Origin: Bacillota bacterium
GTDB lineage: Bacteria; Bacillota; Sulfobacillia; Sulfobacillales; JAIMBI01
Assembly: GCA_021846505.1 (NCBI GenBank)
Contig: JAJZWV010000044.1
Span: forward strand, 1-32,170
Length of the DNA: 32,170 nt
Reading direction: 5' to 3'
Position numbers and translations under genes: made by a program. Positions 4,427 through 30,175 of this stretch are shown one piece after another. The number at the start of each line of letters is the position of its first letter. Position 1 is the stretch's first letter. Below the pieces are notes generated by a model, which saw nothing but the letters and a program-made list of their open reading frames with translations, was not told the DNA's origin and made no database searches.

Positions 4427-5905
4427 TCAGATGATGATGCAAATGAGGCCCCCCGAGCCTTCGTTGATAATCCGCTGGAGGGTTTCCTGCAACTTCTCCT
4501 GCGCGTTTTCCGGCATCCGAAACAGCTTCGCCTGAATGCCCTCGCGCACCAGGTCGTGAAGCGGCTTGCCAAACAAATTCGTGTCCCACAGCCGGCCGGG
4601 GTCGTCCTCGAACTGCTCCATCAGGTAGCGCACCAACTCATCCGCCTGGCGCTCTGTCCCAATAATCGGCGTGATCTCGGTCTCGATGTCCGCACGAATC
4701 ATGTGGATGGACGGAGCCGTCGCCTTCAGGCGCACTCCGAATTGATTGCCGCGGCGGATGAGCTCCGGCTCGGCCAGGTCCAACTCCTCGATTCGAGGCG
4801 CCACCATCCCATACCCACCCGAACGCACCTCCCGGACGGCATCTTCCACCTTGTCCCACTCCGCCTTGGCGACCACGAATTGCCCCCACAGCTTCATGAC
4901 ATCCGCGCGGTCCGCAACGCGGCGATCCGCCATTTCCCCCAGCACTCGGTAAAACAAATCATCTTCGGCAGCGACCTGAATGACAGCCCGCCCGGTCCCC
5001 AGCTCCAGGGCATCCAGCCGAACCGCGCCCACAGAATCCTGTGCCCGCAGATCCGTGACAGCCCCCTCAATGTCGCGCACACGGCTGACCGCCACCCGTG
5101 CCTCCTCCATGACGCGGCTAAACTGCTCCGCGAGCCAGTGGCTGTCGGGGAGGGAGGCGGGCCAGCCCGTCAGCACGACAGACAAATCGCTCACCGGAAA
5201 CTCGTACAGCACCTGCTCTAAGAGGTGAACCAAGTCTCCCTGCCGAAGCTCCTGGCAGTTCAGCGGCACCACGGGGACGTCGTAATCCACGGCCAGCGCT
5301 TCGGCCAGCTCCAGCGTCACCTCGTCGGTCGGCACCTGCGAATTCAGCACCACGCAGAAGGGCTTGCCCAGCTCCTTCAGCTCAGTTACCACGCGCTCTT
5401 CCGCTGCGACAAATTGCTCCCGCGTGATTTCCCCAAACGAGCCGTCCGTTGTCACCACCAATCCGATGGTGGAGTGCTCGGCAATCACCTTCCGGGTGCC
5501 GATTTCCGCCGCCTCCTCAAATGGCATGGGCTCCTCGGACCACGGCGTCAGGACCATCCGAGGGTCCTCATTTTCGCTGTACCCCAGGGCCGCTCCCACC
5601 GAGTAGCCAACGCAGTCCACCAGCCGCGCGCGCAGGCTCACCTGCTCGTTGAGCTGGATCTCCACGCCGTCGTCCGGGATGAATTTCGGCTCCGTGGTCA
5701 TAATGGTGCGCCCGGCCCCGCTTTGGGGCAGCGCGTCAATCGCACGCTCCCGCTCATTGGGATCGTCGATGGCGGGCAACACCATCCGCTCCATAAACCG
5801 CTTGATAAACGTGGACTTGCCAGTGCGGACCGGACCCACGACCCCAATGTAGACATCTCCTCCGGTACGCTCTGCCAGATCCTTGAACAGGTCGAACTTC
5901 TCCAT
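4427..5905 (-). CDS. spoIVA: Stage IV sporulation protein A (spore coat morphogenetic ATPase)
   Basis: SpoIVA forms the basement layer of the spore coat on the forespore outer membrane and polymerises on ATP hydrolysis. The product is 492 residues, the length I recall for Bacillus subtilis SpoIVA. The start MEKFDLFKDLAERTGGDVY matches the family, followed by the Walker A-like GPVRTGKS at residues 24-31 and the Walker B-like DCVGY at 97-101. The conserved middle (TPWSEEPMPFEEAAEIGTRK) and C-terminal end (IINEGSGGLICIII) are intact. The frame is open to about 6073, but family alignment and the purine-rich site just upstream place the ATG at 5905. It is the last gene of the minus-strand series after der. 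A near-consensus sigma-E promoter lies about 165 bp upstream. Its usual neighbour gpsA is absent. Confidence 0.97.
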   Translation of the reverse strand: MEKFDLFKDLAERTGGDVYIGVVGPVRTGKSTFIKRFMERMVLPAIDDPNERERAIDALPQSGAGRTIMTTEPKFIPDDGVEIQLNEQVSLRARLVDCVGYSVGAALGYSENEDPRMVLTPWSEEPMPFEEAAEIGTRKVIAEHSTIGLVVTTDGSFGEITREQFVAAEERVVTELKELGKPFCVVLNSQVPTDEVTLELAEALAVDYDVPVVPLNCQELRQGDLVHLLEQVLYEFPVSDLSVVLTGWPASLPDSHWLAEQFSRVMEEARVAVSRVRDIEGAVTDLRAQDSVGAVRLDALELGTGRAVIQVAAEDDLFYRVLGEMADRRVADRADVMKLWGQFVVAKAEWDKVEDAVREVRSGGYGMVAPRIEELDLAEPELIRRGNQFGVRLKATAPSIHMIRADIETEITPIIGTERQADELVRYLMEQFEDDPGRLWDTNLFGKPLHDLVREGIQAKLFRMPENAQEKLQETLQRIINEGSGGLICIII

Positions 5906-6222
5906 GCCCCCGCTTCCCTCCCCCGCTGCTCGGCTGGTGTCACCGCGCCACCGTCGCCATGCGCTCGCAGCCCCTTGCGCCCTCACTCTTGGCGTCGCCG
6001 TCGGCGGGCGGCAGCGCTCACGCCTCGTCCTCGGACCATCCGGGCAGCCGCACCGGCTTTTGTCCTCCAGCACCGTATGTCCGCCCCTGCCACGATATGA
6101 AGAGGCGTCAGCGACGACACGAACAATCTGCCAGTGCGGTGAGAAGAGTGAGGCTGCCCGGGGATGCAGGGCATGCCGCGAAATCCGAAGCGGGATCCGC
6201 CGGGCTGGCCGCGCGCCGCCAC
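5906..6222 (-). other. Intergenic region between der and spoIVA
   Basis: This 317 bp gap has no convincing gene. In Bacilli gpsA and small yph genes lie here, but I see no remnant of them. It holds the sigma-E-like promoter at 6072-6100 and, beyond it, a leader of roughly 160 nt up to spoIVA in which I recognised no further structure. Confidence 0.5.
6072..6100 (-). promoter_or_regulatory. Sigma-E-type promoter for spoIVA
   Basis: On the minus strand TCATATC (6100-6094) is followed after 14 nt by CATACGGT (6079-6072). From established knowledge, the mother-cell sigma-E consensus is about KMATATT, 14-15 nt, CATACAHT. The match is 6 of 7 at -35 and close to full at -10 (only CA to CG differs in the conserved core), with correct spacing. 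It points at spoIVA, a known sigma-E target in Bacillus. Confidence 0.72.
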
Positions 6223-12507: not shown

Positions 12508-13632
12508 ATGAACGAGGATTGGATCCCCGAGCGGACCTTCCCCGCGGGCGGGCACCACCGGCTGGCGCTGCCGCCTGGCCCGCTGACCTTCGCCAACGTC
12601 TGGACGGCACTCCCCCCTGCTCGCCGCGAGGCGGCCCGCGACTATTTTGCCCAGGGCCGGGTGGTCCACCGCTGCCGGCGGGGCCGTGCACACATTGCCG
12701 TGCTGCACGGCCACCAAGATGTCTACCACGTTTATTGTGAGGACGGCGCCGCCGGCTGGCAAGTGGGGTGCACGTGTGAGCGCCGAGCGCCGTGCGCCCA
12801 CGTCGGCGCGCTACTGCTCGCGCTGGCGGAGGAGCCGGGCACGTTCACGGCCTGGAGCTCGGCAGCCGCGGCCCTCGCGGGGGCCGAGGATTGGGCCTGG
12901 GACTGGGCGCGGGGGGCTTCGTTTCCCTGGGCCGCCTTCACCGCGCACACGCCGTTATGGCAGGCCCCAGCGGGACCCGAGGCTCCGCTCCCGAAAGCCG
13001 CCGCCGCCCTGGATGCGACCACCGGCCGCGACCTGGACGCCCTGCTGGCCGACCTGGTGCAGGCGGCCCACCCCGGCTGGTGGGAGCATCCGCGCTTTGC
13101 GCGCACCCTTGCCGGCGCATTTGCCCGACTGGCGCACCAAGCCCCGCCTCCGGCTGCGCTGGCACGGTGGATGGGCCGGCTCGCCGGCGAGCCCCGCATC
13201 CCGTGCAGCCTGTTATTTGACACAAACGCCGCCGAAAGCCCTGCTGTGGCAGCCGCTTGGCAAAGCGCGCTGTGGACCGTCGCTGCGGCGCATGCCCTAG
13301 ACCCACGCCCGTCCCAGGCGGTGTCCGCGCGCGCCCTCCTGGCCCTGCCGCGGCTCGCCGCCGCGCATCCGGAGCTGGTGCGCGAGTTCGGGTGGGCGCT
13401 CCCCGCCAATGCCAGCCAGGCCGCGCTCCTGGTTCAGCAAGGCCGCCCGGCCGAGGCCTGGTGGCACTTATCCCAGCAGCCACCGGCCCCGGCTTCAGAC
13501 GATGCCTTTGGAGGCGGCTCTCCCGATCCCTACCGGCGCGCTGTCAAGCTTCTCGCGAAGGAGATGGTGACGGGGCTCGCGAGTGAGCCGCCTGGCCCGC
13601 GTCCCAGCGCATCAGGCCCGGCGTTTCCGTAA
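12508..13632 (+). CDS. SWIM zinc-finger domain protein
   Basis: This 374-residue protein has a SWIM finger near its N terminus: C88, C90, C96 and H98 in GCTCERRAPCAHVGALLLAL, fitting CxCx(n)CxH. SWIM fingers bind DNA or protein. In bacteria such proteins are often encoded next to SNF2-family ATPases, and one lies about 4 kb away at 17561-19135. The remaining 270 residues are Ala/Pro/Trp-rich and helical, with no further domain I recognise. The start is supported by GAGGTG 5 nt before the ATG. The 3' end overlaps the convergent nicotinate phosphoribosyltransferase gene by 89 bp. The Pro/Ser-rich tail encoded in that overlap may be non-essential. Confidence 0.85.
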   Translation: MNEDWIPERTFPAGGHHRLALPPGPLTFANVWTALPPARREAARDYFAQGRVVHRCRRGRAHIAVLHGHQDVYHVYCEDGAAGWQVGCTCERRAPCAHVGALLLALAEEPGTFTAWSSAAAALAGAEDWAWDWARGASFPWAAFTAHTPLWQAPAGPEAPLPKAAAALDATTGRDLDALLADLVQAAHPGWWEHPRFARTLAGAFARLAHQAPPPAALARWMGRLAGEPRIPCSLLFDTNAAESPAVAAAWQSALWTVAAAHALDPRPSQAVSARALLALPRLAAAHPELVREFGWALPANASQAALLVQQGRPAEAWWHLSQQPPAPASDDAFGGGSPDPYRRAVKLLAKEMVTGLASEPPGPRPSASGPAFP

Positions 13633-15129: not shown

Positions 15130-15283
15130 CGCCGCCTGTCTTCCCAATTAGGCTTACGGCCGCGTGGCCGGCCCGCCCCGAGACTAGCATCCGCCCCAAA
15201 CCGGGTCAACGCCTGCCCGGCCTGACATAGCGGAGCCTTCGCCGCGCACATATTTGGCTAGGTGGGAACAGGGAGGCACATTT

Positions 15284-15817
15284 GTGCTCAATGTGGTGGA
15301 CGGCATCTCGATCTGGGCGGTGCCGATCTTGCTGGGCATCATTCCGGTTTACGGCCTCTTGAGAGGTGTGCCCGTGTACGAGGTATTCGTGGAGGGCGCC
15401 GAAGAGGGGTTCAAGATGGCCGTCATGATGATTCCCTTTATCGTGGGCATACTGGTGGCGCTGTCGGTGTTTGAAGCTTCCGGCGCGCTGGACTGGGTCA
15501 TCGCCCGCCTCGCAGGCCCTCTCTCGCTGGTGGGGGTGCCCGCGCCGGTGGTGCCACTGATGCTGGTGCGGCCCATCTCGGGCGGAGCCGCCCTCGGTAT
15601 CGCCACCGGGTTGCTCCAAAAGTACGGGCCGGACTCGTTTGTGGGCCGCGTGGCCTCTACCCTGCAGTCCAGCACCGACACCACGTTTTATGTGCTGACC
15701 CTGTACTTTGGCAGTGTCAGCATCCGCCGCACCCGCTATGCCCTTAAGGTGGCGCTGCTGGGCGACCTGGCGGGCTTTGTGGCGGCCGTGGTGATTTGCC
15801 ACGCGCTCTGGGGCTAG
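15284..15817 (+). CDS. spmB: Spore maturation protein B
   Basis: SpmB works with SpmA in the sporulating cell and is needed for full spore core dehydration and heat resistance in Bacillus; it is a membrane protein with nucleoside-recognition (Gate) features. The 177-residue product is one residue shorter than the B. subtilis length I recall. It shows the family segments VPVYEVFVEGAEEGFKMAV, the LMLVRPISGGAA loop and STDTTFYVLTLYFGSV. An AGGGAGG 7 nt before the GTG at 15284 fixes the start. The orientation is odd: it lies where expected, right after spmA, but on the opposite strand, and the two 3' ends overlap by 74 bp. It must therefore have its own promoter; I saw only weak sporulation-like boxes upstream. 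Confidence 0.95.
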   Translation: MLNVVDGISIWAVPILLGIIPVYGLLRGVPVYEVFVEGAEEGFKMAVMMIPFIVGILVALSVFEASGALDWVIARLAGPLSLVGVPAPVVPLMLVRPISGGAALGIATGLLQKYGPDSFVGRVASTLQSSTDTTFYVLTLYFGSVSIRRTRYALKVALLGDLAGFVAAVVICHALWG

Positions 15818-16394
15818 GCTGCCGCCACCGATACCAGCGATCCGCGACCACCGCCACCATCATGGCCGCCGCCGTGGCCATGATGGTGGGGCCGACGATA
15901 TCCGCGGGACTGCGAGAGCCTGCCGCCACCCGGAGCGCAATGACCGACGCCGGCACGAGATTCAGCGCGGCTGTATTGAGCGCTATGAACGTAATCATCG
16001 ACGAGGAGGCCGTGGCGTCGCTGGGATCCTGAAGGCTTCGCAAGTCCTGCATGGCCTTCAGCCCAAAGGGGGTGGCGGCGCTGCCCATGCCCAACATATT
16101 GGCAACCAAGTTCATGGACATGTTGCCCAGCGCCGGTGTGTCGTGGGGAACTTCGGGAAACAGCCGGCGCAACACGGGTGCCAGCAGGTCGGCCAGCTGC
16201 TGCATCAAGCCCGACCGCTCGGCAATGCGGGCCATGCCCAGCCACAGCGTCATGATGCCCACGAAGCCCAGGGCTACCTCCACGCCCTTGCCCGCCGCGG
16301 TCATTGCCGCCTGAGTCACCTCCGGCAGGGTGCCGCCGGCGGCCGCCACCAGCAGCCCTCCCACGAGGAGCACCACCCACACCACGTTGATCAC
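15744..16394 (-). CDS. spmA: Spore maturation protein A
   Basis: SpmA is the partner of SpmB in spore core dehydration. The 216-residue membrane protein starts INVVWVVLLVGGLLVAAAGG and contains the family stretch GLMQQLADLLAPVLRRLFPEVP, NMSMNLVANMLGMGSAATPFGLKAM and SSSMITFIALNTAALNLVP. Several helices are visible. The GTG at 16394 has AGGGGG about 10 nt upstream; a longer open frame to 16547 overlaps the preceding gene and is rejected. About 20 extra residues at the C terminus (Pro/Arg-rich) are encoded in the part overlapping spmB, so the stop appears to have shifted downstream. It follows the disulfide-oxidoreductase-like gene by 14 bp, in the long minus-strand run that also holds the end-joining genes. 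Confidence 0.95.
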   Translation of the reverse strand: MINVVWVVLLVGGLLVAAAGGTLPEVTQAAMTAAGKGVEVALGFVGIMTLWLGMARIAERSGLMQQLADLLAPVLRRLFPEVPHDTPALGNMSMNLVANMLGMGSAATPFGLKAMQDLRSLQDPSDATASSSMITFIALNTAALNLVPASVIALRVAAGSRSPADIVGPTIMATAAAMMVAVVADRWYRWRQPSPRARGKSPRPPQSPPGRPAAPP

Positions 16395-16408
16395 GGGTCG
16401 CTCGCCCC

Positions 16409-17104
16409 CTAGGGACGAGATATGCCACCGGGCTCCGGTGCCAACACCCGAAGCCACTGCGAAATCCACTCGGATTCCGGAGCCATGCCGGACCACGCGG
16501 CCGCGCGGCCAGACGCCGGGTCCCACACGCGCACGCTTGGCAGCCACTCGGCGCCGACCAGCCCGCCGTCGGTGGGGGCTCCCACCGCGGCCGCGTCGAC
16601 AATCAGCGCGCGCACTCGACCCGCGGTCGCGGCAGCGAGGCGCTCCGCTAGGCGAATGGCGTGAGGGCAGTACGGGCAGTTGGCACTGACCGCCACCTGC
16701 ACCAGCAGCGGCCGGTCTACGAGCTCCAGCACGGGGTGCCAGCGGTCCGCCAACGGGCGCCGGGGGCGACTCAAGTCCAGCAATTGACCGACCACGGTCT
16801 GATAGATGTATCCAGCGGGCACACCCAGAAGCCGGGTGCCGCTGTCCGCGCCGTCGGCGTCAAAAAACACCGCCGCTGGGCGGAGGCCCCCGGTGTCCGG
16901 CGCTTCCCGCTCCATGGGTGCGGGCTCGTGGTGCCGCCGCACCGTCAGTCGCCGGTGTGCGGCGTCCCGGGTGGCCGTCCAGATGGCATCGGCTCGCTCG
17001 GACGGCTCCTCATCGTCCAGAAACACATCCACGGCCACCGGCGCGACCAAACCCGACAGCATGAGGGCCAGCGTGCGTCGGTCCCGATGGTCAAAGCTGG
17101 ACAC
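16409..17104 (-). CDS. Glutaredoxin-like protein disulfide oxidoreductase with one CXXC
   Basis: The 231-residue protein has the two-thioredoxin-fold layout of archaeal/thermophile protein disulfide oxidoreductases. The second fold carries the active-site CPYC (C143-C146, within ANCPYCPHAIRLAE) and a later LPSVRV cis-Pro strand. The first fold is recognisable by the VFLDDEEPSERAD strand-helix and the LLGVPAGYIYQTVV hinge segment, but its CXXC is gone; in its place is a Asp/Glu-rich stretch near residues 30-37. It would act in disulfide reduction or isomerisation in the cytoplasm. The GTG at 17104 overlaps the rhodanese stop by 14 nt and is preceded by GGAG; a GTG at 17128 is less likely. Function is inferred from fold and motif only. 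Confidence 0.82.
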   Translation of the reverse strand: MSSFDHRDRRTLALMLSGLVAPVAVDVFLDDEEPSERADAIWTATRDAAHRRLTVRRHHEPAPMEREAPDTGGLRPAAVFFDADGADSGTRLLGVPAGYIYQTVVGQLLDLSRPRRPLADRWHPVLELVDRPLLVQVAVSANCPYCPHAIRLAERLAAATAGRVRALIVDAAAVGAPTDGGLVGAEWLPSVRVWDPASGRAAAWSGMAPESEWISQWLRVLAPEPGGISRP

Positions 17105-17492
17105 GCGTTGCCATGGGCTCCAAATCACTCACACAGTGCCCCGCCCACCCCAGCATGCCGCCCTTGAGCCAGTGCACGTCCCGAAAGTGGCGCGTCTGGA
17201 GGAAGCGGACGGCCTGCAGTGATCGATACCCGGTGCGGCACACCAACACCACACGGTCCTCGGGCGACCAGCACTCGTGCTGCTGGCGCAGCCGGCGCCA
17301 GGGGACCGACACCGAGCCGTCTAGATGCCCGCGATTGAATTCCTCCACGGAGCGAAGATCAGCCACCACCACCGGCCCCTGCTGCCGCCAGCGCTCCAGC
17401 TGCTCCGGCGTGACCCCCTTCACCGACAGCCATGGGCGCACCTGCGTCCACGCTCCGAGCGCCAGGAGCCCCAATACTAAAATGCCCAGCAT
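17091..17492 (-). CDS. Membrane-anchored rhodanese-like protein
   Basis: This 133-residue protein has one N-terminal membrane helix (residues 1-18) followed by a single rhodanese domain. The catalytic loop is CRTGYRS with C85, preceded by the conserved DLRS-VEEFNRGHLDGSVSVPW segment and followed by the LKGGMLGW strand-turn. Such proteins transfer sulfane sulfur or bind phosphate/arsenate-like groups; the substrate is unknown. The ATG at 17492 has a weak AAAGG upstream. It overlaps the downstream disulfide-oxidoreductase-like gene by 14 nt, so the two are probably co-translated and functionally paired in thiol/sulfur chemistry. Confidence 0.9.
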   Translation of the reverse strand: MLGILVLGLLALGAWTQVRPWLSVKGVTPEQLERWRQQGPVVVADLRSVEEFNRGHLDGSVSVPWRRLRQQHECWSPEDRVVLVCRTGYRSLQAVRFLQTRHFRDVHWLKGGMLGWAGHCVSDLEPMATRVQL

Positions 17493-17560: not shown

Positions 17561-19135
17561 TTAGGGATCGCGGTGAGGGCTTGCGCCGTCCCACCGTCCC
17601 ACGCGCGCCTCGGCTGCCCGAAACTCGCGCGCCACCCTATCCAGCCGCTCTTCCAGGTCACCGGGGCCCGCGGTCATCGCAATGGACAGCAGGCGACCCT
17701 CCCAGCTGCGCCCGCGGTGCTCCAGGTGGCGCAGGATGACGTCCAGCTCGCCCACCACCTGACGGAACAAATCGATTTTTTCGTGGAGCAGACGCAGAAT
17801 CTGCTCCTCGATTGTGCGGGCCGCGAACAAGTTGTAGATGTGGCATCGAGCCTCTTGGCCCAGGCGGTGTATGCGGCCGATGCGCTGTTCAATGCGCATC
17901 GGATTCCATGGCAGATCGTAGTTGACCACGTGATGGCACCACTGGAGATTGAGTCCTTGGCTGCCCGCCTCTGTCGACACCAGCACCGCGCGCGGCGTCC
18001 TGCGGAACCACTCGAGCGCCCGCTCCCGATCACGCGGCGGCTGGCGCCCGGAAAAGGGCGCCGCGGGAATGCCCGCAACGTTCAGCTGGACCACGAGCAT
18101 GTCCTGAGTGGCGGTAAATTCCGTAAATACCACCGCGGGTGCCGACAGGGGCTTCAGCAGCTCCTGAAGGGCGTCCGCCTTTGCGGGCCGCGGAATGGAC
18201 CGCGCCAGTTTCAGAAGCGGCTCCTGGCTCTCGCCCAGCCACCCGGCGCCATCCAGAGCAGAGGCCAGTGCCTGCGGACTGGAGCACAGCTCGCGCTGGA
18301 TGGTGAGAATGGGCAGCAAATTGCCATGCCCGCGGAGCCGCTGCGCATAGGCGTCGCGGAGCTGCCGAGTGACCCGGACATACAGCGCCCGCTCCGGTGG
18401 CGTGGGCACAATCGGCAGCAGGGTGACCTCACGGGCGGGGAGGCCGAGGCCGGCCTCGTGGTGGCGGTGCCGGATCATCACCCGCGCCAGCAGCGCGCGC
18501 AGGGCCGCAAGATTTTTCGGTGTGCGCGGGGCGACGATGAACTCGCGATAAAATTCCAGGTACGACCCGAACAGCTGCGGCGCCACCAGCGTGACCAGAC
18601 TGTATAGCTCGGTCAGGCGGTTTTCCAGCGGCGTCGCGGTCAGCAGCAGCGTGTGGCGCCGGCGGATCGCCTCGACCAGTGCGTAGTTTTGGGTGCGGGG
18701 ATTTTTCAGGTGGTGGGCCTCATCCACCACCAGCAGATCCCACCGCCGCTCGAGGACTGCGCGCTTCTGCCGCTCGCGCTTGGCAGCATCCAGCGACAGC
18801 ACGGTTACGGCGGCCCTCTCGCGGGGATCGATGGCACTCGGCCAGCCGAACTTCTGCACCCATTCGTCTCGCCACTGCCGCACAAGCCCGGCCGGCGCCA
18901 GCACAAGCGTCGACGCGCCCCCACCCCGCGCCGCCAGCTCCGCGCGAACCAGACCCGCCTCCACGGTTTTGCCCAGACCCACTTCGTCCGCCAAAATCGC
19001 GCTCCCGCCCAAATCCTCCACAACCGCCCGGGCCGTCTCCACCTGGTGGGCATAGGCCGCCAGGCCCCGCGCTGCCCGCCCCTCCAGAAACGCCTCCGCG
19101 GCAAACCCGTTCCACACCAGCGTGCCTCTGTTCAC
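17561..19135 (-). CDS. SNF2-family DNA-dependent ATPase/helicase
   Basis: This is a compact 524-residue superfamily 2 SNF2-type ATPase, a double-strand DNA translocase. Visible motifs are motif I DEVGLGKT (50-57), motif Ia LVLAPAGLVRQW, motif II DEAH (138-141), motif III LLLTATP (163-169), then the C-terminal lobe with SQGLNLQWCHHVVNYD and motif VI QRIGRIHRLGQ. It lacks the large N-terminal extensions of RapA or the SWIM-linked helicases. A GTG at 19135 has AGGGAGG 11 nt upstream and is preferred over the GTG at 19147, which overlaps that site. It begins 21 bp after the LigD-type polymerase stop, so it is the fourth gene of the ku-ligase-polymerase series. A role in clearing or remodelling DNA ends during end joining is my inference. 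Confidence 0.93.
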   Translation of the reverse strand: MNRGTLVWNGFAAEAFLEGRAARGLAAYAHQVETARAVVEDLGGSAILADEVGLGKTVEAGLVRAELAARGGGASTLVLAPAGLVRQWRDEWVQKFGWPSAIDPRERAAVTVLSLDAAKRERQKRAVLERRWDLLVVDEAHHLKNPRTQNYALVEAIRRRHTLLLTATPLENRLTELYSLVTLVAPQLFGSYLEFYREFIVAPRTPKNLAALRALLARVMIRHRHHEAGLGLPAREVTLLPIVPTPPERALYVRVTRQLRDAYAQRLRGHGNLLPILTIQRELCSSPQALASALDGAGWLGESQEPLLKLARSIPRPAKADALQELLKPLSAPAVVFTEFTATQDMLVVQLNVAGIPAAPFSGRQPPRDRERALEWFRRTPRAVLVSTEAGSQGLNLQWCHHVVNYDLPWNPMRIEQRIGRIHRLGQEARCHIYNLFAARTIEEQILRLLHEKIDLFRQVVGELDVILRHLEHRGRSWEGRLLSIAMTAGPGDLEERLDRVAREFRAAEARVGRWDGASPHRDP

Positions 19136-19156
19136 TGCCGCTGCCACCTCCCTGTC

Positions 19157-20017
19157 TCATCTCGCCCAATCGGCTGCAAGCTGCCGCAGCCTGCCCACGG
19201 GTGGAATCCCGGCGCGCTCCAGTGTGGACCGCAGGTCCACCGCCGGGCCGCGGCCCCATACAGGCACGGCCTGCCCCTGGAGCACCGTGGCCACCCGGTG
19301 GTGGTCCGGCTCCAGGCTTGCCAGCGCGCCCACCCCCGTGGGCCAGCTGACTGGGGCCATCTCCCGCGCGCGCACCCCGTACACGGCCGCCATGGTGCGG
19401 TGCCCGCTGTTTTGCAAGTAGTCCAGATACACCCGCGGCCCCCGATCCCGCACGCGACGCACCACCGTCATGATGTCGGGCGAGACGGCGCAGGCCACGC
19501 GGGCCAGGCGCTCCATCGCCTCGGTCGCGTCAGCCGCCTCGGTGGGCCGGATAGGGACCAGGATGTGAACCCCCCGGCCGCCGGAGGTTTTGACGCTCAT
19601 GGGCATCCCTACGTGGTCAAACAGGCGCGCGACGGCCTGCGCGGCTTGGACCACCCGCGGCCATCCCGCAGGGGGGTGTGGATCAAGGTCCATTACGGCC
19701 CAGTCGTGAAGGGAAGGCGTGCCGGCCAGGACTCCGCTGACTCCCAGCGGCAGGTGAAACTCGACCGCGCCCTGCCGCACCCATCCCAATAACTCGGCGG
19801 GATCCTCAATGCGGATGGCACAGCGCCGGCCCCGGGTCGTCACGAATTTTTGAAAAAACCCGGGCTGGCCGACGCCGCGGGGATAGCGAATCAGCGTCAC
19901 CGCCCGGCCCACGCACGCGTCCACCAACGGCTGGCTCACCCGCTCGTAATAGGCGAGCAGGTCGGAGCGCCAAATGTTCGCCGCCGGAAACAGCAGCCGG
20001 TCGCGCCCGCTGCTCAT
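19157..20017 (-). CDS. ligD-pol: LigD-type polymerase/primase domain protein
   Basis: This 286-residue protein is a stand-alone archaeo-eukaryotic-primase-type polymerase, equivalent to the polymerase domain of bacterial LigD. It fills gaps and adds ribonucleotides at broken ends in non-homologous end joining. Motifs: YYERVSQPLV near residue 23, TLIRYPRGVGQPGFFQK (41-57), catalytic DLDP (D110 and D112), the SGGRGVHI nucleotide-binding loop (145-152) and the third acidic residue in YLDYLQN (D199). The length fits the domain alone, with no nuclease or ligase part. The start overlaps the ligase stop by 4 bp (ATGA), so the proteins are translationally coupled. Confidence 0.94.
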   Translation of the reverse strand: MSSGRDRLLFPAANIWRSDLLAYYERVSQPLVDACVGRAVTLIRYPRGVGQPGFFQKFVTTRGRRCAIRIEDPAELLGWVRQGAVEFHLPLGVSGVLAGTPSLHDWAVMDLDPHPPAGWPRVVQAAQAVARLFDHVGMPMSVKTSGGRGVHILVPIRPTEAADATEAMERLARVACAVSPDIMTVVRRVRDRGPRVYLDYLQNSGHRTMAAVYGVRAREMAPVSWPTGVGALASLEPDHHRVATVLQGQAVPVWGRGPAVDLRSTLERAGIPPVGRLRQLAADWAR

Positions 20018-20829
20018 CGCGAAGCCTCCCCGTACGCGACAAAGGCGGCGTGGCGGAGACGGCCGCTGGGGGTCCGGCCCCGATGCCGCACCCGCGCCAG
20101 CACCCCGGCCCCGAGCTCGATGCGCTGCCCCTCGACCGGGGCGCCCACGCCGGGCGGCGCCGGCACCGCCAAACAGGCCAGCGGCGGCCAGCCGCCCACG
20201 GCGGTCACGTCGCCGAGCCAGCGGCCGGCCCGGCCCGTCAGGACCTGCACTTCCACCTGTACTTCTTCAGCGTGCAAAAACTTTCTCCAGTCCGCGCTTC
20301 GCCGGCCCGGCCAATAAGAGCTAGCCTGCCGCTTGGCCACTACCCCTTCGAAGCCCAGGCGGCCGGTGGCTCGGAACAGGTCTTCGCCGCGCTCCGCCAC
20401 CCCGTCGCACAGCATCAAGGGGCCGGCCGGCCGAACTATGGCTTCAAGATGCCGCCGACGCACCGTCCAGGGCTGGTCGAGGAGCCACCCGCCCGGCGCA
20501 TAAAGGCAGTCAAACGCCACCAGGATCACCTGCCCGTGGCCCGCGGCCAGCGCATGAAAGTTGATGCGGCCCGCATCCCAGGCCACCACCTCGCCGTCCA
20601 GCACGGCCGGCCCAGCCACCCCGGTCTCGACCGCTGCCAGCCCCGGAAAGCGGTCCAGGAGGTTTTCCCCGTGGCGCGAGCGCACCGTCAGGTGGCGGCT
20701 CACGCTCACCTGCGCCCGGAAGCCGTCCCACTTGGGCTCAAACCACCAGTCCTTGCTGGTGAACGGCGCCGGGGCCGTGACCGCCAGCATGGGCGGCACG
20801 AAGTCGCCCAGCGTCCTCTCCGCCGGCAT
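20014..20829 (-). CDS. ligD-lig: ATP-dependent DNA ligase (LigD ligase-domain type)
   Basis: This 271-residue ligase seals breaks in end joining. It has the adenylated Lys K33 in EPKWDGFRA, motif III VLDGEVVA, the FDCLY strand, motif IV FEGVVAKR and an OB-fold C-terminal half. Motif V reads ADWRKFLH where ligases usually have W-x-K-x-K, so the second Lys is replaced; activity may be altered or the residue supplied differently. It lies directly after ku (ku stop TGA abuts this ATG) and overlaps the polymerase start. Ligase and polymerase are split here rather than fused as in many LigD proteins. Confidence 0.94.
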   Translation of the reverse strand: MPAERTLGDFVPPMLAVTAPAPFTSKDWWFEPKWDGFRAQVSVSRHLTVRSRHGENLLDRFPGLAAVETGVAGPAVLDGEVVAWDAGRINFHALAAGHGQVILVAFDCLYAPGGWLLDQPWTVRRRHLEAIVRPAGPLMLCDGVAERGEDLFRATGRLGFEGVVAKRQASSYWPGRRSADWRKFLHAEEVQVEVQVLTGRAGRWLGDVTAVGGWPPLACLAVPAPPGVGAPVEGQRIELGAGVLARVRHRGRTPSGRLRHAAFVAYGEASR

Positions 20830-21612
20830 TCAGCGCGCCCCAGCCGAAGGCGGTGCGGCCACGTCCTCCAGCGACCGCCGCAGCTGGTCCACCAGGCTCT
20901 TCAGTCCCGCAGGTGGGCTCGCGGGAGCGACCGCCTGACCTTGCTCCGCCCGCTCCAACAGGGCCGCCATCAGGGTGGCGCGGGCCTCGTCCGGATAGGC
21001 GGCAGGCTCAAACGGCTCCGACAGATGGTCCACCAGGGCCAAGGCCATTTCTTCCTCGCGTTCGGAGGCTTTCGGGGCCTCGGAGCCGAAGTGGGCTCCC
21101 TCCTGCCGCACTGCCTCTGGCCAGTGCATGCTGTGGAGCATGAGGGCACCGGTCCCATAAGGGCGCACCACGGCCAGCCGGGGCCGCTCGCGCGCGGCCA
21201 TGCGCGCCACCGCCACTTGATGGCGGCGGGACATCGCCTGGCTGAGCAGCCCATAGGCCTGGTGGCCGCCGCTGGCTGCCTTCAGCCAATAGGCTTGGTC
21301 AAAGTACACCGGATCAAGGTCGGCCAAGGGGTGAAAGCTGAGGATGGAAATCACTCGATCCGGTGGCCGGCGGTCGGCGGGCTCCTCATTGCAGGGCACC
21401 AGCCGGCCATCGCCCAGCACGGCGGCTCGCGCGATCTCGCCCCTGTCCAGCACGCGGTCGCACGCGGGGCACTGCTTTTGGTAACGCACCCGCTCGCCGC
21501 AGCCGCGGTGGATCCAATGGGTCTCCACGCGCTCGGCGCCGACGGCCCGATAAAGCTCCACCGGGATCGAGACCAGCCCAAAGCCCAAGACGCCTTTAAA
21601 CATGCTCCGCAT
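20830..21612 (-). CDS. ku: Ku DNA end-binding protein
   Basis: Bacterial Ku is a homodimeric ring that binds double-strand DNA ends and recruits the ligase. The 260-residue product begins MRSMFKGVLGFGLVSIPVELY, the family's usual start, and has the Cys-bearing GCGERVRYQKQCPACDRVL segment also found in Bacillus Ku. The beta-barrel core continues through VYFDQAYWL and LMLHSMHWPEAVR. The longer open frame upstream is not part of the protein; ATG 21612 and ATG 21603 are both possible starts, with only a G-rich site upstream. It follows ytfJ by 68 bp and heads the end-joining series. In Bacillus subtilis ku and ligD are expressed in the forespore; a spore link here is suggested by location. Confidence 0.95.
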   Translation of the reverse strand: MRSMFKGVLGFGLVSIPVELYRAVGAERVETHWIHRGCGERVRYQKQCPACDRVLDRGEIARAAVLGDGRLVPCNEEPADRRPPDRVISILSFHPLADLDPVYFDQAYWLKAASGGHQAYGLLSQAMSRRHQVAVARMAARERPRLAVVRPYGTGALMLHSMHWPEAVRQEGAHFGSEAPKASEREEEMALALVDHLSEPFEPAAYPDEARATLMAALLERAEQGQAVAPASPPAGLKSLVDQLRRSLEDVAAPPSAGAR

Positions 21613-21680: not shown

Positions 21681-22211
21681 TCAGCGCGCGCTGTTGTCGC
21701 TGGCCGGGTAGGTATACGTTGAGGCGTGGCTCTCCTTGCTGCTGCCGCCACCCAGCCAGCTCTGCACCTGCTCCACGATTTGGGGCCCGGCTTCCAGCAG
21801 CCGGTCCCACATGTCCCCGCCTTCCACGGACAGCATGCGCACGGCATCGCCGCGCTGCACCAAAAATCCCATGGGCCGGACCGAGACGCCCGCACCGCTG
21901 CCGCCGCCAAACGGGCGTGCCCCGGCCGGGCTCGCGCCCGTCCGGTCGGGCCGCCAAAACTCGCCGCCGCCGGCGGCAAAGCCAAATGACACCCGAGAGA
22001 TGGGAATAATGGTGGTGCCGTCCTGCGTCGAGACCGGGCTCCCGACCACGGTGTTGACGTCAATCATGCCTTTGATGGACTCCATGGCGGTTTTCATGAG
22101 CCCCTCGATGGGGTGCCGGCTTAGCGGGCCGGACGCGTCGGCCGCGGCGCCGTGGTTGCCCGGGGCCATGGGGCGCTCATCGGGGTGAAGCCCCTGCTCG
22201 CTGTTGGCCAT
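21681..22211 (-). CDS. ytfJ: Sporulation/germination protein YtfJ (GerW family)
   Basis: GerW-family proteins are made in sporulating cells and are needed for normal germination in Bacillus and Clostridium; the molecular role is unclear. The 176-residue product has the family core HPIEGLMKTAMESIKGMIDVNTVVG and a TTIIPISRVSFGFAAGGGE segment, then a Gly/Ala-rich stretch and the VSVRPMGFLVQRGD segment. AGGAGGGG 7 nt before the ATG at 22211 supports the start. It overlaps the ytfI stop by 35 bp, so translation is coupled. The C terminus (STYTYPASDNSAR) is not conserved. ku follows 68 bp downstream. Confidence 0.94.
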   Translation of the reverse strand: MANSEQGLHPDERPMAPGNHGAAADASGPLSRHPIEGLMKTAMESIKGMIDVNTVVGSPVSTQDGTTIIPISRVSFGFAAGGGEFWRPDRTGASPAGARPFGGGSGAGVSVRPMGFLVQRGDAVRMLSVEGGDMWDRLLEAGPQIVEQVQSWLGGGSSKESHASTYTYPASDNSAR

Positions 22212-23783: not shown

Positions 23784-24350
23784 CTACGGGGCGCCGGGCC
23801 TGGCCGCGTCGGATTCCCCGGTCGCCTGCGGCGCCGGCGGAAGCGCGTCCAAATCCGGGAGGCCAAAGACTTCGAGAAACCGGTCGGTCGTGGCATAGAG
23901 GATGGGGCGGCCCGGCACCTCCTTGCGGCCCACTTCCGCCACGAGGCCCCGCGACACCAGCGTGTCGACGGCATGGTCGGAGCTGACCCCGCGCATGGCG
24001 TCAATTTCCAGGCGCGTGACGGGCTGGCGGTATGCCACCACCGACAGCACTTCCCAGGCGGCCGAGGACAGCCGCTCCGCCGCCCGCTGGCCGGTGGCCG
24101 CCCGCACCCACGCGGCCGCGGGCCCCGCCAGCACCAGCTGCCACCCATGGGCCACCTCGCGGATCTCCCACGGCGTGTCCGCGAGCCGGGTGCGCGCCTC
24201 GGCCGCCAGCTCTGGCACGCGGCCCGCCTCCACATCCAGCAGCGCTTCCGCCTGGTCCGTGGGCAGGGGCTCCCCCGCCGTGAACAGCAGGGCCAGGAAG
24301 CGCTCCGCCAGCACCCCGCCGCCAAGGCGCGGGCTTGCCCCGTCACTCAT
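23784..24350 (-). CDS. scpB: Segregation and condensation protein B
   Basis: ScpB is the winged-helix kleisin-associated subunit of the bacterial SMC condensin and acts in chromosome compaction and segregation. The 188-residue product has the two winged-helix halves typical of the family, with SAAWEVLSVVAYRQPVTRLEIDAMRGVSSDHAVDTLVSRGLV and the GRPILYATTDRFLEVFGL segment, both highly characteristic. The ATG at 24350 overlaps the scpA stop by 4 bp (ATGA). A GGGGAG site lies 9-10 nt upstream. Downstream is a gap of about 216 bp before the acetyltransferase gene. Confidence 0.94.
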   Translation of the reverse strand: MSDGASPRLGGGVLAERFLALLFTAGEPLPTDQAEALLDVEAGRVPELAAEARTRLADTPWEIREVAHGWQLVLAGPAAAWVRAATGQRAAERLSSAAWEVLSVVAYRQPVTRLEIDAMRGVSSDHAVDTLVSRGLVAEVGRKEVPGRPILYATTDRFLEVFGLPDLDALPPAPQATGESDAARPGAP

Positions 24351-25132
24351 GTGCGCGGCTCTCCCCTTGTCGGTCCGGATTCGGGGGCGGCGGCCCCCGG
24401 CACACGGGGCCGCCGCCGGCGCAGCGCCAGCACGAGCGGGCCAAACGCTTCCGTCTGGCTAGCCACCAAGCGGCCCCGCGACCACAACGCCATCACGACC
24501 AGAAACTGCTCCACCCGCGCGGCCCGGGGCAAGTCGGCGACCAAGGACTGGAAGTCGGCGCCGGGGGCGGCCCGCCGAAGGCGCCGAATCAGCAGCATGG
24601 CCCGACGCCACAGCGGCGGATCGGGCGCCACGGTAGCTCCCGGCGGCTTCTCTCGCCGCGGCGCGCGCCCCGGGGGCCACGCCAGCGGCAGGCGCCAAGG
24701 GTGGGCATCGCGTATCGCGGGCCATCCCGGGCTGGGCCAGCGCGGCGGCCCCGCAGCGGTTGGATGCAGCACCTCCCGGTATTCCCGCAGTGCGGCCGTG
24801 GCTTCCTCCACCCAGAGCCGGTCGTCAAACGCCTCGTCGCCCTCAGCGTCCGCGTCCTCCTCCGTTTCCGCCAGCACCTCGCGAATTTTCTTGCCCAGCA
24901 CCCAAGCCGCCACCGGCATTTCATCCGCGATCCGGTCGACACCCTCAACGGTTCGCCAGTGGCGGCGCAGCTGGGCAATCAGCTCGGTGGCCGAAATCCC
25001 CAGCGCGGCTAGAGTGCGCCGCCGCAGTCGCGCCGCCAAGTCTGCCAGGGTACCCGCATATTGGGCCATAGCGATGGGCGGCCGCACCGCATCCGATCGG
25101 TCTATCCGCGACGGCATCGCCTGAGCTGGCAT
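24347..25132 (-). CDS. scpA: Segregation and condensation protein A (divergent)
   Basis: ScpA is the kleisin bridging SMC and ScpB. This 261-residue product is assigned mainly by position, being coupled to scpB by a 4 bp overlap, and by the C-terminal winged-helix-like segment VEQFLVVMALWSRGRLVASQTEAFGPLVLAL, which resembles the ScpA end. The middle PVAAWVLGKKIREVLAE resembles the family's FLVMAATLLEIKS region only weakly, and the typical LDLI...EITEQYL N terminus is not visible. A Pro/Arg-rich linker of about 50 residues (near 140-190) looks expanded. GAGGAGG close before the ATG at 25132 sets the start. It may be a strongly diverged ScpA. Confidence 0.75.
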   Translation of the reverse strand: MPAQAMPSRIDRSDAVRPPIAMAQYAGTLADLAARLRRRTLAALGISATELIAQLRRHWRTVEGVDRIADEMPVAAWVLGKKIREVLAETEEDADAEGDEAFDDRLWVEEATAALREYREVLHPTAAGPPRWPSPGWPAIRDAHPWRLPLAWPPGRAPRREKPPGATVAPDPPLWRRAMLLIRRLRRAAPGADFQSLVADLPRAARVEQFLVVMALWSRGRLVASQTEAFGPLVLALRRRRPRVPGAAAPESGPTRGEPRT

Positions 25133-25166
25133 TCGGCCTCCTCCTCTCACCCCGGGGCTGGCCAAG

Positions 25167-26474: not shown

Positions 26475-26831
26475 TTAGGAGCGCGGGGTGAAAACCAGGG
26501 CTGCCGCGAGGGAAAAAAGGACGGCGGCCTTGATGCCGCCGGCTGCGGCGGTGAGCCCCCCGGTCAGAAGCCCCAACACCCCCTCGGTTTTGGTGGCGCG
26601 GTCAATCCCCTCCACCATGGTGTAGCCGAACCCGGGTAGGGGCACCGTGGCGCCCGCGCCTGCCCACTTGACCAGTGGGCCATACCAGCCAAGTCCGCCG
26701 GCAAGGGCCCCGAGGACGACAAACAGCACCATCACGTGCGCAGCCGTGATGTGGCCCACATCCACCACCAGCTGCGCCAGCACGCACAGGAGACCCCCGA
26801 CCACAAACGCGATCAGCAGTCCGGTCCACAT
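26475..26831 (-). CDS. spoVAEB: Stage V sporulation protein AE (SpoVAEb type, membrane)
   Basis: This 118-residue inner-membrane protein of the dipicolinate channel complex has four hydrophobic segments and the family pattern FVVGGLLCVLAQL at the start, LVKWAGAGATVPLPGFGYTMVEG in the middle and GVLGLLTGGLTAAAGGIKAAV near the end. The ATG at 26831 overlaps the spoVAD stop by 1 bp (TGATG), so translation is coupled. It is homologous to SpoVAC, with which it shares the central Gly-Ala-Pro-rich loop. Confidence 0.95.
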   Translation of the reverse strand: MWTGLLIAFVVGGLLCVLAQLVVDVGHITAAHVMVLFVVLGALAGGLGWYGPLVKWAGAGATVPLPGFGYTMVEGIDRATKTEGVLGLLTGGLTAAAGGIKAAVLFSLAAALVFTPRS

Positions 26832-27832
26832 CAGCGGCCGGCCTCCAGCTCAATCACATGCGCCACGGCGGGAATCGACTCGCCCTGCTGATAGCTGGTG
26901 GGTGAAAACAGCGCACCGGTGGCAGCCACCAGCACCCGGTGCCACCGCCCATCCTCCAGATGCGGGAGCACATGGCTCGCCACCACGGCCGCGACGCATC
27001 CCGTGCCCGACCCCCCGTTGTGAACATCTTGGTCGGGACGATACAGCGAGCGCCCGCAGTCGTCGTGCACGCGCCCGAAGTGGCCATCGTGGGCGAGGTC
27101 GCACAAAATGGCGCTGCCCACCATCCCGAGGTCTCCCGTGAACACCCGATCGTAGGCGCTCCAGGTTTCGCCCACGGCCTCCAGATGCCGCTGCAGCGAA
27201 TCCCACGCAGCCGGAGCCATTGCCGTGCCCATGTCCATCGGGTCCGTGCTGCCGGGATCCACGACGCGCCCCACCGTGAACGCGCGCAGCCGCACCGGCC
27301 CGGCCCCCTGGGTGATGGCCAAAGCCCCGGCCGCCGTGGCCGTCCAACTGGCGGTGGGAGATCGCTGATATCCAAATTCGATCGGGAACCGAAACTGGCG
27401 CTCTACCGCCAAGTGGTGGCTCCAAGCCCCGGCCAGCACGCGCGCTGAGCCAAGTTCGCACCACACTCCCGCCAGGCCCACGGCTTCCGCGAAGGTGGCG
27501 CACGCGGAAAACACGCCCAGCGTCGGCCGACGGTGCTGGCGCCCCGCAAAGTTAGTCGACACCAGCTGATCCAGCAAGTCGCCGCCTAGCACCACATCCA
27601 CATCCGCCAGCTGCCATCCCCCGCCTTCGGCCGCGCCCCCTAAGACATGGACGGCCATCTTGGCTTCGGCGGCCTCCCACGTGGCCTCCCCCGCCAAATC
27701 GTCTTCCCACACCTGGTCCAGGTTCCCGCCCAGTGGGCCGGCAGCCTCCCGCCGCCCGCCGGCGGCGTGGTGGCCGACCACCGCCACGTTTTGAAACTGC
27801 CGTGTGCTGGTGGGTGCATGGCCGCTGCTCAC
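26831..27832 (-). CDS. spoVAD: Stage V sporulation protein AD
   Basis: SpoVAD is a thiolase-fold, dipicolinate-binding subunit of the SpoVA complex on the spore inner membrane. The 333-residue product is close to the B. subtilis length I recall (338). It has VVLGGDLLDQ, the FSACATFAEA segment with the thiolase-position Cys, ERQFRFPIEFGYQ, VGRVVDPGSTDPMDMGTAMAPAA and GGSGTGC, all family features. The GTG at 27832 overlaps the spoVAC stop (GTGA). The frame is open for another 650 bp upstream but that part overlaps spoVAC and the dodecin gene and is not coding. Confidence 0.96.
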   Translation of the reverse strand: MSSGHAPTSTRQFQNVAVVGHHAAGGRREAAGPLGGNLDQVWEDDLAGEATWEAAEAKMAVHVLGGAAEGGGWQLADVDVVLGGDLLDQLVSTNFAGRQHRRPTLGVFSACATFAEAVGLAGVWCELGSARVLAGAWSHHLAVERQFRFPIEFGYQRSPTASWTATAAGALAITQGAGPVRLRAFTVGRVVDPGSTDPMDMGTAMAPAAWDSLQRHLEAVGETWSAYDRVFTGDLGMVGSAILCDLAHDGHFGRVHDDCGRSLYRPDQDVHNGGSGTGCVAAVVASHVLPHLEDGRWHRVLVAATGALFSPTSYQQGESIPAVAHVIELEAGR

Positions 27833-28272
27833 GATCCGACCAGCAGCCGAGCCAGCCCCACCACAAACGCCGCTCCCAGCCCATAAGCCAGCACGGGCCC
27901 CGCCACCGCAAACAGCTTGGCACCCACGCCCAGCACCCATCCCTCGCGGCGATACTCCATCGCCGGGGCCACCATGGCATTGGAAAACCCGCTGATGGGC
28001 AAAGATCCCCCCATGCCCCCGCATTTGACCACGCGATCGTAGAGGCCCAAGCCCGTGAACAGCGCTCCCAGCCCGACCATCACCACCGCAGTCGGGGACG
28101 CGGCCTGCCCGGGGCTGTTCCCGTGTGCGATGAAGAAGTCGGTGACCAGCTGGCCCACCATACAGATCGCCCCGCCTATGGCAAAGGCGCGCACCGCATT
28201 GCTCCAGGTGGGCGCAGGCGGCCGATGCCGGGCCGCCAGCGCCAGGTAGTCCGCGTCCTTTTCCGAAGGCAT
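27829..28272 (-). CDS. spoVAC: Stage V sporulation protein AC
   Basis: SpoVAC is the membrane channel subunit for dipicolinate; in Bacillus it acts as a mechanosensitive channel. The 147-residue protein has the core NAVRAFAIGGAICMVGQLVTDFF, GLGALFTGLGLYDRVVK, LPISGFSNAMVAPAMEYRREG and the last helix pattern typical of the family. Starts at GTG 28281, ATG 28278 and ATG 28272 are in frame; GCGGAG sits 8 nt before 28272, which I prefer. It is the first gene of spoVACDE here; spoVAA and spoVAB are absent, as in clostridia. No clear sigma-G promoter is visible directly upstream. Confidence 0.95.
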   Translation of the reverse strand: MPSEKDADYLALAARHRPPAPTWSNAVRAFAIGGAICMVGQLVTDFFIAHGNSPGQAASPTAVVMVGLGALFTGLGLYDRVVKCGGMGGSLPISGFSNAMVAPAMEYRREGWVLGVGAKLFAVAGPVLAYGLGAAFVVGLARLLVGS

Positions 28273-28311
28273 AGCCATCACTCCGCTGGATGTATTGCGG
28301 AACCGCGCGTG

Positions 28312-28676: not shown

Positions 28677-29378
28677 TTACGGGGCCCGCAAGAGAGCCGC
28701 GAGGCGCAACGCAATCCGTGCTTGGCGCCGGGACACTTCGGCCTGCGATACAGACCACCGCCGCGCCAATGCCGCCTGCGTCTCGCCGCAGGCAAAGCGC
28801 GCGCGCAGCAGCGCCCGGTCTTGGGGCGTCAGCTGAGCGAGCGCGGCCTCCAAGTCCATATGCTGCGCCCAGCCTTGCTCGTGATCGACCTCGCCGGCGG
28901 CTGCGTCACTGACGGTGTCCAGCGGCTGCAGGGGCTCCCGCCGATCCAAGGCCTCGACCACCTCGGTCCGGTCCCAGCCCAGCTCGCGGGCCAGCTCGTC
29001 GACCGTCGGGCCGGGCGCCCCGGCGGCCGCGCGCGCCTGAAGGCGCGCCGCCAACTGGCGGCGGCGCTCGGACCCCAGCCGGCCCCATCCATCCGCCGGA
29101 TGATCCCGAAGCCAGTGGCGCAGCTCGCCCACCATCACCGGCACCGCGTAGGTCGAAAAGGCCGCGCCGCGGCTCGGCTCAAATCGCGACAGCGCTTTCA
29201 CCAAGCCCAGCGCGGCCACCTGCGCGATGTCCTCCGGCTCGCCCCCGCTGCGAAACCGCCCGGCCACCATCCGCACCAAACCCTGGTGGCGGCGGAACGC
29301 CTCCTCCATCGCCAGCACGTCGCCGGCCTGCAAGCGCGCGACCAGGGCGGCAAAGGGCGGCTCTGCCTCAGGGCCCAT
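28677..29378 (-). CDS. sigF: RNA polymerase sigma factor, forespore sigma F
   Basis: Sigma F is the first forespore-specific sigma factor; SpoIIAB holds it inactive until SpoIIAA releases it. The 233-residue product has region 2 with DIAQVAALGLVKALSRFEPSRGAAFSTYAVPVMVGELRHWLRD, region 3 with TVDELARELGWDRTEVVEALDRR, and region 4 with LTPQDRALLRARFACGETQAALARRWSVSQAEVSRRQARIA (helix-turn-helix). The ATG at 29378 overlaps the spoIIAB stop by 11 bp and has no strong ribosome site, which fits translational coupling. Gene order spoIIAA-spoIIAB-sigF is the standard one, which separates it from sigma G and sigma B. Confidence 0.95.
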   Translation of the reverse strand: MGPEAEPPFAALVARLQAGDVLAMEEAFRRHQGLVRMVAGRFRSGGEPEDIAQVAALGLVKALSRFEPSRGAAFSTYAVPVMVGELRHWLRDHPADGWGRLGSERRRQLAARLQARAAAGAPGPTVDELARELGWDRTEVVEALDRREPLQPLDTVSDAAAGEVDHEQGWAQHMDLEAALAQLTPQDRALLRARFACGETQAALARRWSVSQAEVSRRQARIALRLAALLRAP

Positions 29379-29829
29379 CGCTGGCGGCTTCCCGCCCCAG
29401 TGCCGCCGCCGAGGGCGCCGGCACCCGCTTTTGCAGCACCACCCGCGTTCCCGCGCCCGGCTGGCTCTCGATCGCCACCTCATCCATAAACGTCTCCATA
29501 AACAGCACGCCGAGCCCCAGGCGCTCGCCATCCGCAGCCGCCTGCCGCGCCAGGCCCACGTCCTCCATCCCGCATCCCCGGTCCGCCACGACCACCCGAA
29601 GCCACTCGGCCGACAGGCTGGCCTCGACCAGCACCCATCCCTCGTCTCTGCCCCCGTACCCATGCACCAGCGCGTTGGTGACGGCCTCAGACACGGCCAC
29701 TTTAATTTCTTCCAGATCCGCGACGGCAAAGGGCGCCGCGGCCGCCAGCGCGGCCACCGCCAGCCGCACCAGCCCCACATTGTCCGGGCGGCTCCGCACT
29801 TCCAGCTTAAACGAGTTGGCCTCCGCCAT
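29368..29829 (-). CDS. spoIIAB: Anti-sigma F factor and serine kinase SpoIIAB
   Basis: SpoIIAB binds sigma F and phosphorylates SpoIIAA using ATP. The 153-residue GHKL-fold protein has the N box EAVTNALVHGY (48-58), the G1 box DRGCGM (83-88) and the G2 region GLGVLFMETFMDEVAIESQPGAGT. R22 lies where Bacillus SpoIIAB has the Arg that contacts its partners. The ATG at 29829 has GAAGGGAG upstream and overlaps the spoIIAA end by 23 bp. The C-terminal tail (PAPSAAALGREAASDGP) is slightly longer than usual. Confidence 0.96.
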   Translation of the reverse strand: MAEANSFKLEVRSRPDNVGLVRLAVAALAAAAPFAVADLEEIKVAVSEAVTNALVHGYGGRDEGWVLVEASLSAEWLRVVVADRGCGMEDVGLARQAAADGERLGLGVLFMETFMDEVAIESQPGAGTRVVLQKRVPAPSAAALGREAASDGP

Positions 29830-30175
29830 CGGCGACCACTCCCTTCTCCCGAGTCCTGTCGGACACCCCAGCATCCCAGCTCATAATTTGCCGGACGCCT
29901 GCCACCGTCAAAACCGCCGAGACCGCTGGCTGCACCCCGTCTAAGTGCATCGCCCGCCCCGCAGCGGATAGGCGGCGGTACCGCCCGAGCAGCACCCCCA
30001 GCCCGGTGCTGTCGATAAAGCTGACGGCCGACAAGTCGACCCGCAGGTCGCGGTCCGGATAGCGGTCCAGCAACGCATCCAGTGCAGCCCGCGCATCGGC
30101 CGCGCTGGCCAGGTCCAAGTCTCGCTCCAGCGCCACGGTCAGCCGACCCGGCTCGACCCGGTACGAGATGGCCAT
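29807..30175 (-). CDS. spoIIAA: Anti-anti-sigma factor SpoIIAA
   Basis: SpoIIAA is the STAS-domain protein that, when unphosphorylated, displaces sigma F from SpoIIAB. The 122-residue product has the conserved phosphorylation-site segment FIDSTGLGVLLGRYR with S56, equivalent to Ser58 in Bacillus. GGGGGAGG lies 6 nt before the ATG at 30175. It is the first gene of the spoIIA operon and overlaps spoIIAB by 23 bp. I could not find a sigma-H-type promoter (AGGAATT / GAAT) in the 140 bp upstream, which instead holds GC-rich palindromes. Confidence 0.95.
   Translation of the reverse strand: MAISYRVEPGRLTVALERDLDLASAADARAALDALLDRYPDRDLRVDLSAVSFIDSTGLGVLLGRYRRLSAAGRAMHLDGVQPAVSAVLTVAGVRQIMSWDAGVSDRTREKGVVADGGGQLV

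Follow-up and report, generated by a model that had tools for sequence, protein, structure and literature searches.

End-joining genes and a YqhH-type SNF2 ATPase gene within a conserved sporulation gene run

Why do genes for non-homologous end joining (NHEJ) stand in the middle of a run of sporulation genes, and does the SNF2 ATPase gene that follows them belong to the end-joining machinery or to the spore? The question is raised by a contig of 32,170 nucleotides from a Bacillota bacterium of the class Sulfobacillia, referred to below at its full length as the window. We analyzed the four genes and their neighbours in the window, and then the same genes across the class and in the Bacilli.

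The four genes and their sporulation neighbours

The preliminary description of the window had placed genes for Ku, a ligase, a polymerase and a SNF2 protein side by side. The coordinates and the Pfam and NCBIfam matches agree with this placement. All four genes lie on the minus strand. The ku gene (20830..21603) encodes 257 aa, or 260 aa if the ATG at 21612 is used; the protein matches PF02735, exceeds the curated equivalog cut-off of TIGR02772 (202 bits vs 150) and is the sole Ku of its genome. The LigD-type ATP-dependent ligase is a separate protein of 271 aa (20014..20829). It matches PF01068 (81 bits vs 26) with an intact KWDG motif, while its partial match to the equivalog model TIGR02779 reaches 131 bits against a cut-off of 228, which marks it as a divergent ligase. 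The LigD-type primase-polymerase, also a separate protein (286 aa, 19157..20017), is clearly recognized by PF21686 (180 bits vs 27.4) and falls below the TIGR02778 cut-off (172 bits vs 215); the DLD and SGGRGVH motifs can be read in its sequence. Judged from these matches and motifs, Ku together with a separate LigD ligase and a separate LigD polymerase makes up a predicted standard bacterial NHEJ set. The fourth gene (17561..19147) encodes a compact SNF2 ATPase of 528 aa, or 524 aa from the GTG at 19135, with the domains PF00176 and PF00271.

The junctions between these genes are short, as had been described. The end of ytfJ is followed by ku after 77 bp, the ku stop codon directly abuts the ATG of the ligase gene (0 bp), and the ligase and polymerase genes overlap by 4 bp. 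The gap between the polymerase and SNF2 genes is 9 to 39 bp: it amounts to 9 bp if translation starts at GTG 19147, and to the 21 bp given earlier if it starts at GTG 19135, just upstream of which stands AGGGAGGT. Scans of the sequence for promoters and terminators gave counts no higher than the shuffled level.

Pfam and NCBIfam matches on both sides also back the flanking sporulation genes that had been named. Upstream of ku, ytfJ/gerW (21681..22211, minus strand) scores 158 bits with TIGR02874 against a cut-off of 116, and it is the constant upstream neighbour. Downstream, the cassette had been thought to reach spmA directly. It does adjoin ytfJ, but two minus-strand genes (17492..16409) separate SNF2 from spmA: a rhodanese-like gene, next after SNF2 (17091..17492, PF00581), and a thioredoxin/protein-disulfide-oxidoreductase-like gene (16409..17128; TIGR02187, 71 bits, below the cut-off). 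The spmA-like gene (15744..16418, minus strand) carries a nucleoside-recognition Gate domain (PF07670) and is assigned by its position and the conserved order; spmB follows downstream of it on the same strand (about 15209-15859).

The upstream part of the run, likewise on the minus strand, comprises scpB (23784-24350, PF04079), scpA (24347-25165, named from its position and from hits in related genomes), a site-2-protease-like gene, and spoVAE (26475-26831), spoVAD (26831-27829) and spoVAC (27829-28281), the spoVA genes being recognized by PF03862 and PF07451. At the head of the run stands a spoIIAA-spoIIAB-sigF-like trio (28677..30175) with STAS, HATPase_c_2 and Sigma70 r2/r4 domains; the sigF-like gene gives 107 bits with the spore sigma-F model, below its cut-off. 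Genes for small acid-soluble spore proteins (SASPs) are present in the genome. A SpoIVA-like gene, recognized by eye only, lies at 4427-6073 on the minus strand, so that sporulation genes would reach past the run described here. On the plus strand (12508-13632), a conserved protein of 374 aa with a SWIM-like CxC...CxH motif and no Pfam match closes the conserved run in several relatives.

Linkage of ytfJ, ku and SNF2 across the class

The class sample comprised 154 genomes, with Ku in 125 and YtfJ in 132; YtfJ was present in 120 of the 125 Ku genomes. Wherever both genes were on one contig (103 of 103 cases, 38 families), ku was found 3′ of ytfJ on the same strand and within 6 kb, and in 95 of these 103 genomes the distance was at most 1 kb. 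In the genomes sampled from elsewhere in the phylum, none of the 28 same-contig Ku/YtfJ pairs lay closer than 22 kb. The annotated loci of the class show the order M50-scpA-scpB-ytfJ-ku-lig-pol-...-spmA-Rid-nadC. Because the adjacency of ku and ytfJ is class-wide and was found in none of the same-contig pairs outside the class, NHEJ genes placed within this run characterize the class as a whole and are no local insertion. The cassette had been described as inserted; the same gene order being the norm across the whole class, this part of the description has to be given up, and a strain-specific insertion is ruled out.

The NHEJ set varies in its ligase. Five loci of families f34 and f35 (L062, L066, L067, L068 and L101) read ytfJ-ku-pol-SNF2, with no ligase gene detected between ku and the polymerase gene. 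An ATP-dependent ligase was present on another contig in three genomes of f35, and none was found in two genomes of f34 that are 85-87% complete.

Of the class genomes, 66 have an orthologue of the compact SNF2, which in one of them is a fragment. Counting SNF2 neighbours of Ku had been proposed as a check. In the class, the SNF2 gene was located 3′ of ku on the same strand, at 1.3-3.1 kb, in 47 of 47 same-contig cases from nine families, a count that takes no account of common ancestry. The median polymerase-SNF2 gap over 27 loci was 39 bp. The linkage is thus real and recurrent, and the SNF2 gene is not a peculiarity of this strain.

Three further observations show to which gene the SNF2 gene is tied. 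Of 64 genomes, 59 had SNF2 no more than 6 kb away from ytfJ, and in the other five the two genes are merely split between contigs. Family f24, to be read as one event, has SNF2 directly after ytfJ, with ku, ligase and polymerase genes located elsewhere; in the relocated loci (L071, L073, L075) the ligase gene is convergent, between ku and the polymerase gene (ku> <lig pol>). Furthermore, SNF2 still lies beside ytfJ in five genomes (G042, G068, G070, G099 and G100; 88 to 99% complete), representing three or four losses, in which no Ku and no LigD polymerase were found. One of them, G070, retains a decayed N-terminal fragment of ku (locus L080, about 9190-9050, minus strand; E 2.5e-8, 45% identity over 51 residues), flanked by ytfJ and by a SNF2 gene that is intact; this points to decay of NHEJ in place with SNF2 spared. 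Since SNF2 was kept at this site after NHEJ had moved or vanished, SNF2 tracks ytfJ and not ku. Conversely, 55 genomes of the class have ytfJ-ku without a compact SNF2; these counts, too, are uncorrected for common ancestry. Outside the class, three members of family f102 (G213, G251, G313) have a SNF2 relative at about 25 kb from ytfJ.

Relationship of the SNF2 protein to YqhH

The SNF2 protein keeps the motifs DEVGLGKT, DEAH and QRIGRIHRLGQ intact. Pfam recognizes only the motor domains (SNF2 and Helicase_C) and no accessory domain, and the AlphaFold model accordingly shows a bare SNF2 core (pLDDT 85), with the Sulfolobus SNF2 core 1z63 and RapA as the nearest solved structures. Sequence identity is uninformative on orthology, the median for the class SNF2 being 42% to YqhH of the Bacilli and 41% to longer paralogues, and a tree of 72 proteins was used instead. 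In this unrooted tree the class proteins form one clade (100/100) and the Bacilli YqhH proteins another (100/99). A 100/100 branch separates these two clades, which are joined by three compact SNF2s from other parts of the phylum, from the longer paralogues found in the same genomes and the SNF2s of other phyla. From the domains and the tree, the window protein is best described as a predicted YqhH-type minimal double-stranded-DNA translocase. The C-terminal motif KIDLFRQVIGELDVILRHLE was considered as a clade-specific partner-binding site and rejected, since related versions occur in other compact clades and in those of the 700-aa proteins. Many of the genomes with the compact protein also encode a longer SNF2 of about 700 aa (L202-L210, L216, L217), which falls into clades of its own.

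YqhH itself has been linked to sporulation and to DNA protection. Transcription of yqhH by sigma-F is known only for B. subtilis, and the gene was a hit in Tn-seq among insertions that retard the formation of heat-resistant spores (PMC4703394). For the B. thuringiensis protein, ATPase and helicase activities as well as UV protection were reported (PMC10054049). Up to 10 kb on either side of yqhH in the Bacilli loci, no Ku, LigD or YtfJ gene was found.

A probable role in spore DNA maintenance, and comparison with known systems

The reading that we favour, and hold to be probable, makes the locus a forespore DNA-maintenance run: NHEJ and a YqhH-type SNF2 would be placed together there to protect and revive spore DNA. 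In the whole spore-forming class, the NHEJ set would have become part of the sporulation run from ytfJ to spmA. The run is presumably co-transcribed, and, by analogy with B. subtilis, its timing in the class may be that of the forespore. End-joining proteins would then be made along with the forespore and be at hand when the only chromosome of the dormant or germinating spore suffers a break. The SNF2 protein most likely acts independently on the DNA of the forespore or of the reviving spore, and its activity could be protein displacement: it might push SASPs, stalled RNA polymerase or other roadblocks along or off the DNA. DNA cleared in this way would become accessible to NHEJ and to other repair, with SNF2 no obligate partner of Ku. 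On this simpler view of their linkage, NHEJ and SNF2 may both be spore genes within one sporulation run.

The two halves of this reading differ in strength. The repair of breaks in spores, proposed from the window alone, has been strengthened: ku adjoins ytfJ in 103 of 103 same-contig cases in the class and in none of the 28 outside it, and in B. subtilis ku and ligD are expressed in the forespore under sigma-G and SpoVT, with spores becoming sensitive when they are lost (PMC3656841). A spore-repair role of the ytfJ-linked NHEJ is thus well supported. The companion proposal, SNF2 as a new partner of Ku, is borne out only in part: it gained the recurrent linkage (47/47), but the two genes are unlinked in f24 and at all examined YqhH loci of the Bacilli, and SNF2 outlives NHEJ, once beside a ku fossil.

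That proposal, in its full form, makes SNF2 a dedicated NHEJ factor, which binds Ku or the break and makes room for the polymerase and ligase, either by remodelling protein on the DNA or by moving Ku inward. SNF2 remodellers take part in eukaryotic end joining, the same-strand position 3′ of ku recurs in nine families, and the gaps behind the polymerase gene are small. The exceptions to the linkage weigh more: the 55 ytfJ-ku genomes that do without SNF2, the move of ku without SNF2 in f24, the five NHEJ-less genomes that keep SNF2 beside ytfJ, and the Bacilli loci where yqhH is not near Ku. We judge the dedicated factor unlikely; an obligate partner role is disfavoured, as SNF2 survives the loss of NHEJ, and a dedicated Ku-SNF2 partnership, though conceivable, gains no specific support from these data. 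Less likely still is a frozen gene order, a conserved run of housekeeping and sporulation genes whose adjacencies have no functional meaning. The whole M50-scpA-scpB-ytfJ...spmA run is conserved, and any of its genes would for that reason appear linked to its neighbours. Against this, the arrangement has been held over 38 families while the surrounding contents changed, the NHEJ genes overlap or abut as is typical of co-translated operons, and Ku and YtfJ occur together (120 of 125 Ku genomes). Hardly to be credited is the view that SNF2 came to lie beside the NHEJ genes as part of a phage-defence system, whether DISARM DrmD-like, BREX or Dpd-like. The DrmD, BrxH and DpdE models are indeed its top library matches, but the scores are far under the curated cut-offs (224.7 vs 610 for the DrmD equivalog). 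Furthermore, the protein is only some half as long and consists of the motor core alone. Within the run, neither a methylase nor a nuclease gene was seen, nor any other partner gene for defence, and SNF2 has been retained vertically with ytfJ across families. A DISARM assignment was rejected on these grounds.

NHEJ in spores is already known. In the open-access literature we found nothing relevant on a SNF2 gene in bacterial NHEJ, and neither the class-wide location of NHEJ in the ytfJ-spmA run nor an NHEJ-adjacent YqhH-type SNF2. Across a whole class, gene order links end joining with sporulation. Beside the forespore data of B. subtilis, this is an independent line of evidence that spore formers use NHEJ for the benefit of the spore. 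The little-studied motor YqhH enters the same setting, and the question arises whether a SNF2 ATPase remodels spore DNA for repair at germination. A bolder version, doubtful at present, would make YqhH-type SNF2s chromatin-type remodellers that open SASP-coated or blocked spore DNA to repair, and would have one of them wired into the NHEJ operon of the class, as the first SNF2 end-joining factor in bacteria.

Seen as a forespore DNA-maintenance run, the locus is best compared with Ku (YkoV) and LigD (YkoU) of B. subtilis, which likewise combine Ku with LigD polymerase and ligase functions in adjacent genes of a spore former. The ligase and the polymerase are separate proteins in the window genome, and the genes lie within the ytfJ-spmA run, whereas B. 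subtilis has its own ykoVU operon. The SNF2 protein shares with YqhH of the Bacilli, its neighbouring clade, a compact motor core of about 530-560 aa, and B. haynesii YqhH (559 aa) has the same domains; in that species yqhG comes next after yqhH, and gcvT lies divergent to it, whereas the window gene has the polymerase gene 5′ and the rhodanese gene 3′, and yqhG was not found as a neighbour of the class SNF2. RapA and YwqA have the same motor fold, but RapA, with 968 aa, carries further domains that the 528-aa protein lacks, and its model is matched with 159.7 bits against a cut-off of 576; an identity with RapA was rejected. The paralogues of about 700 aa in the same genomes share some 41% identity with the compact protein over the motor core, and are set apart by an extra N-terminal part, by a separate clade and by loci unlinked to ytfJ or ku.
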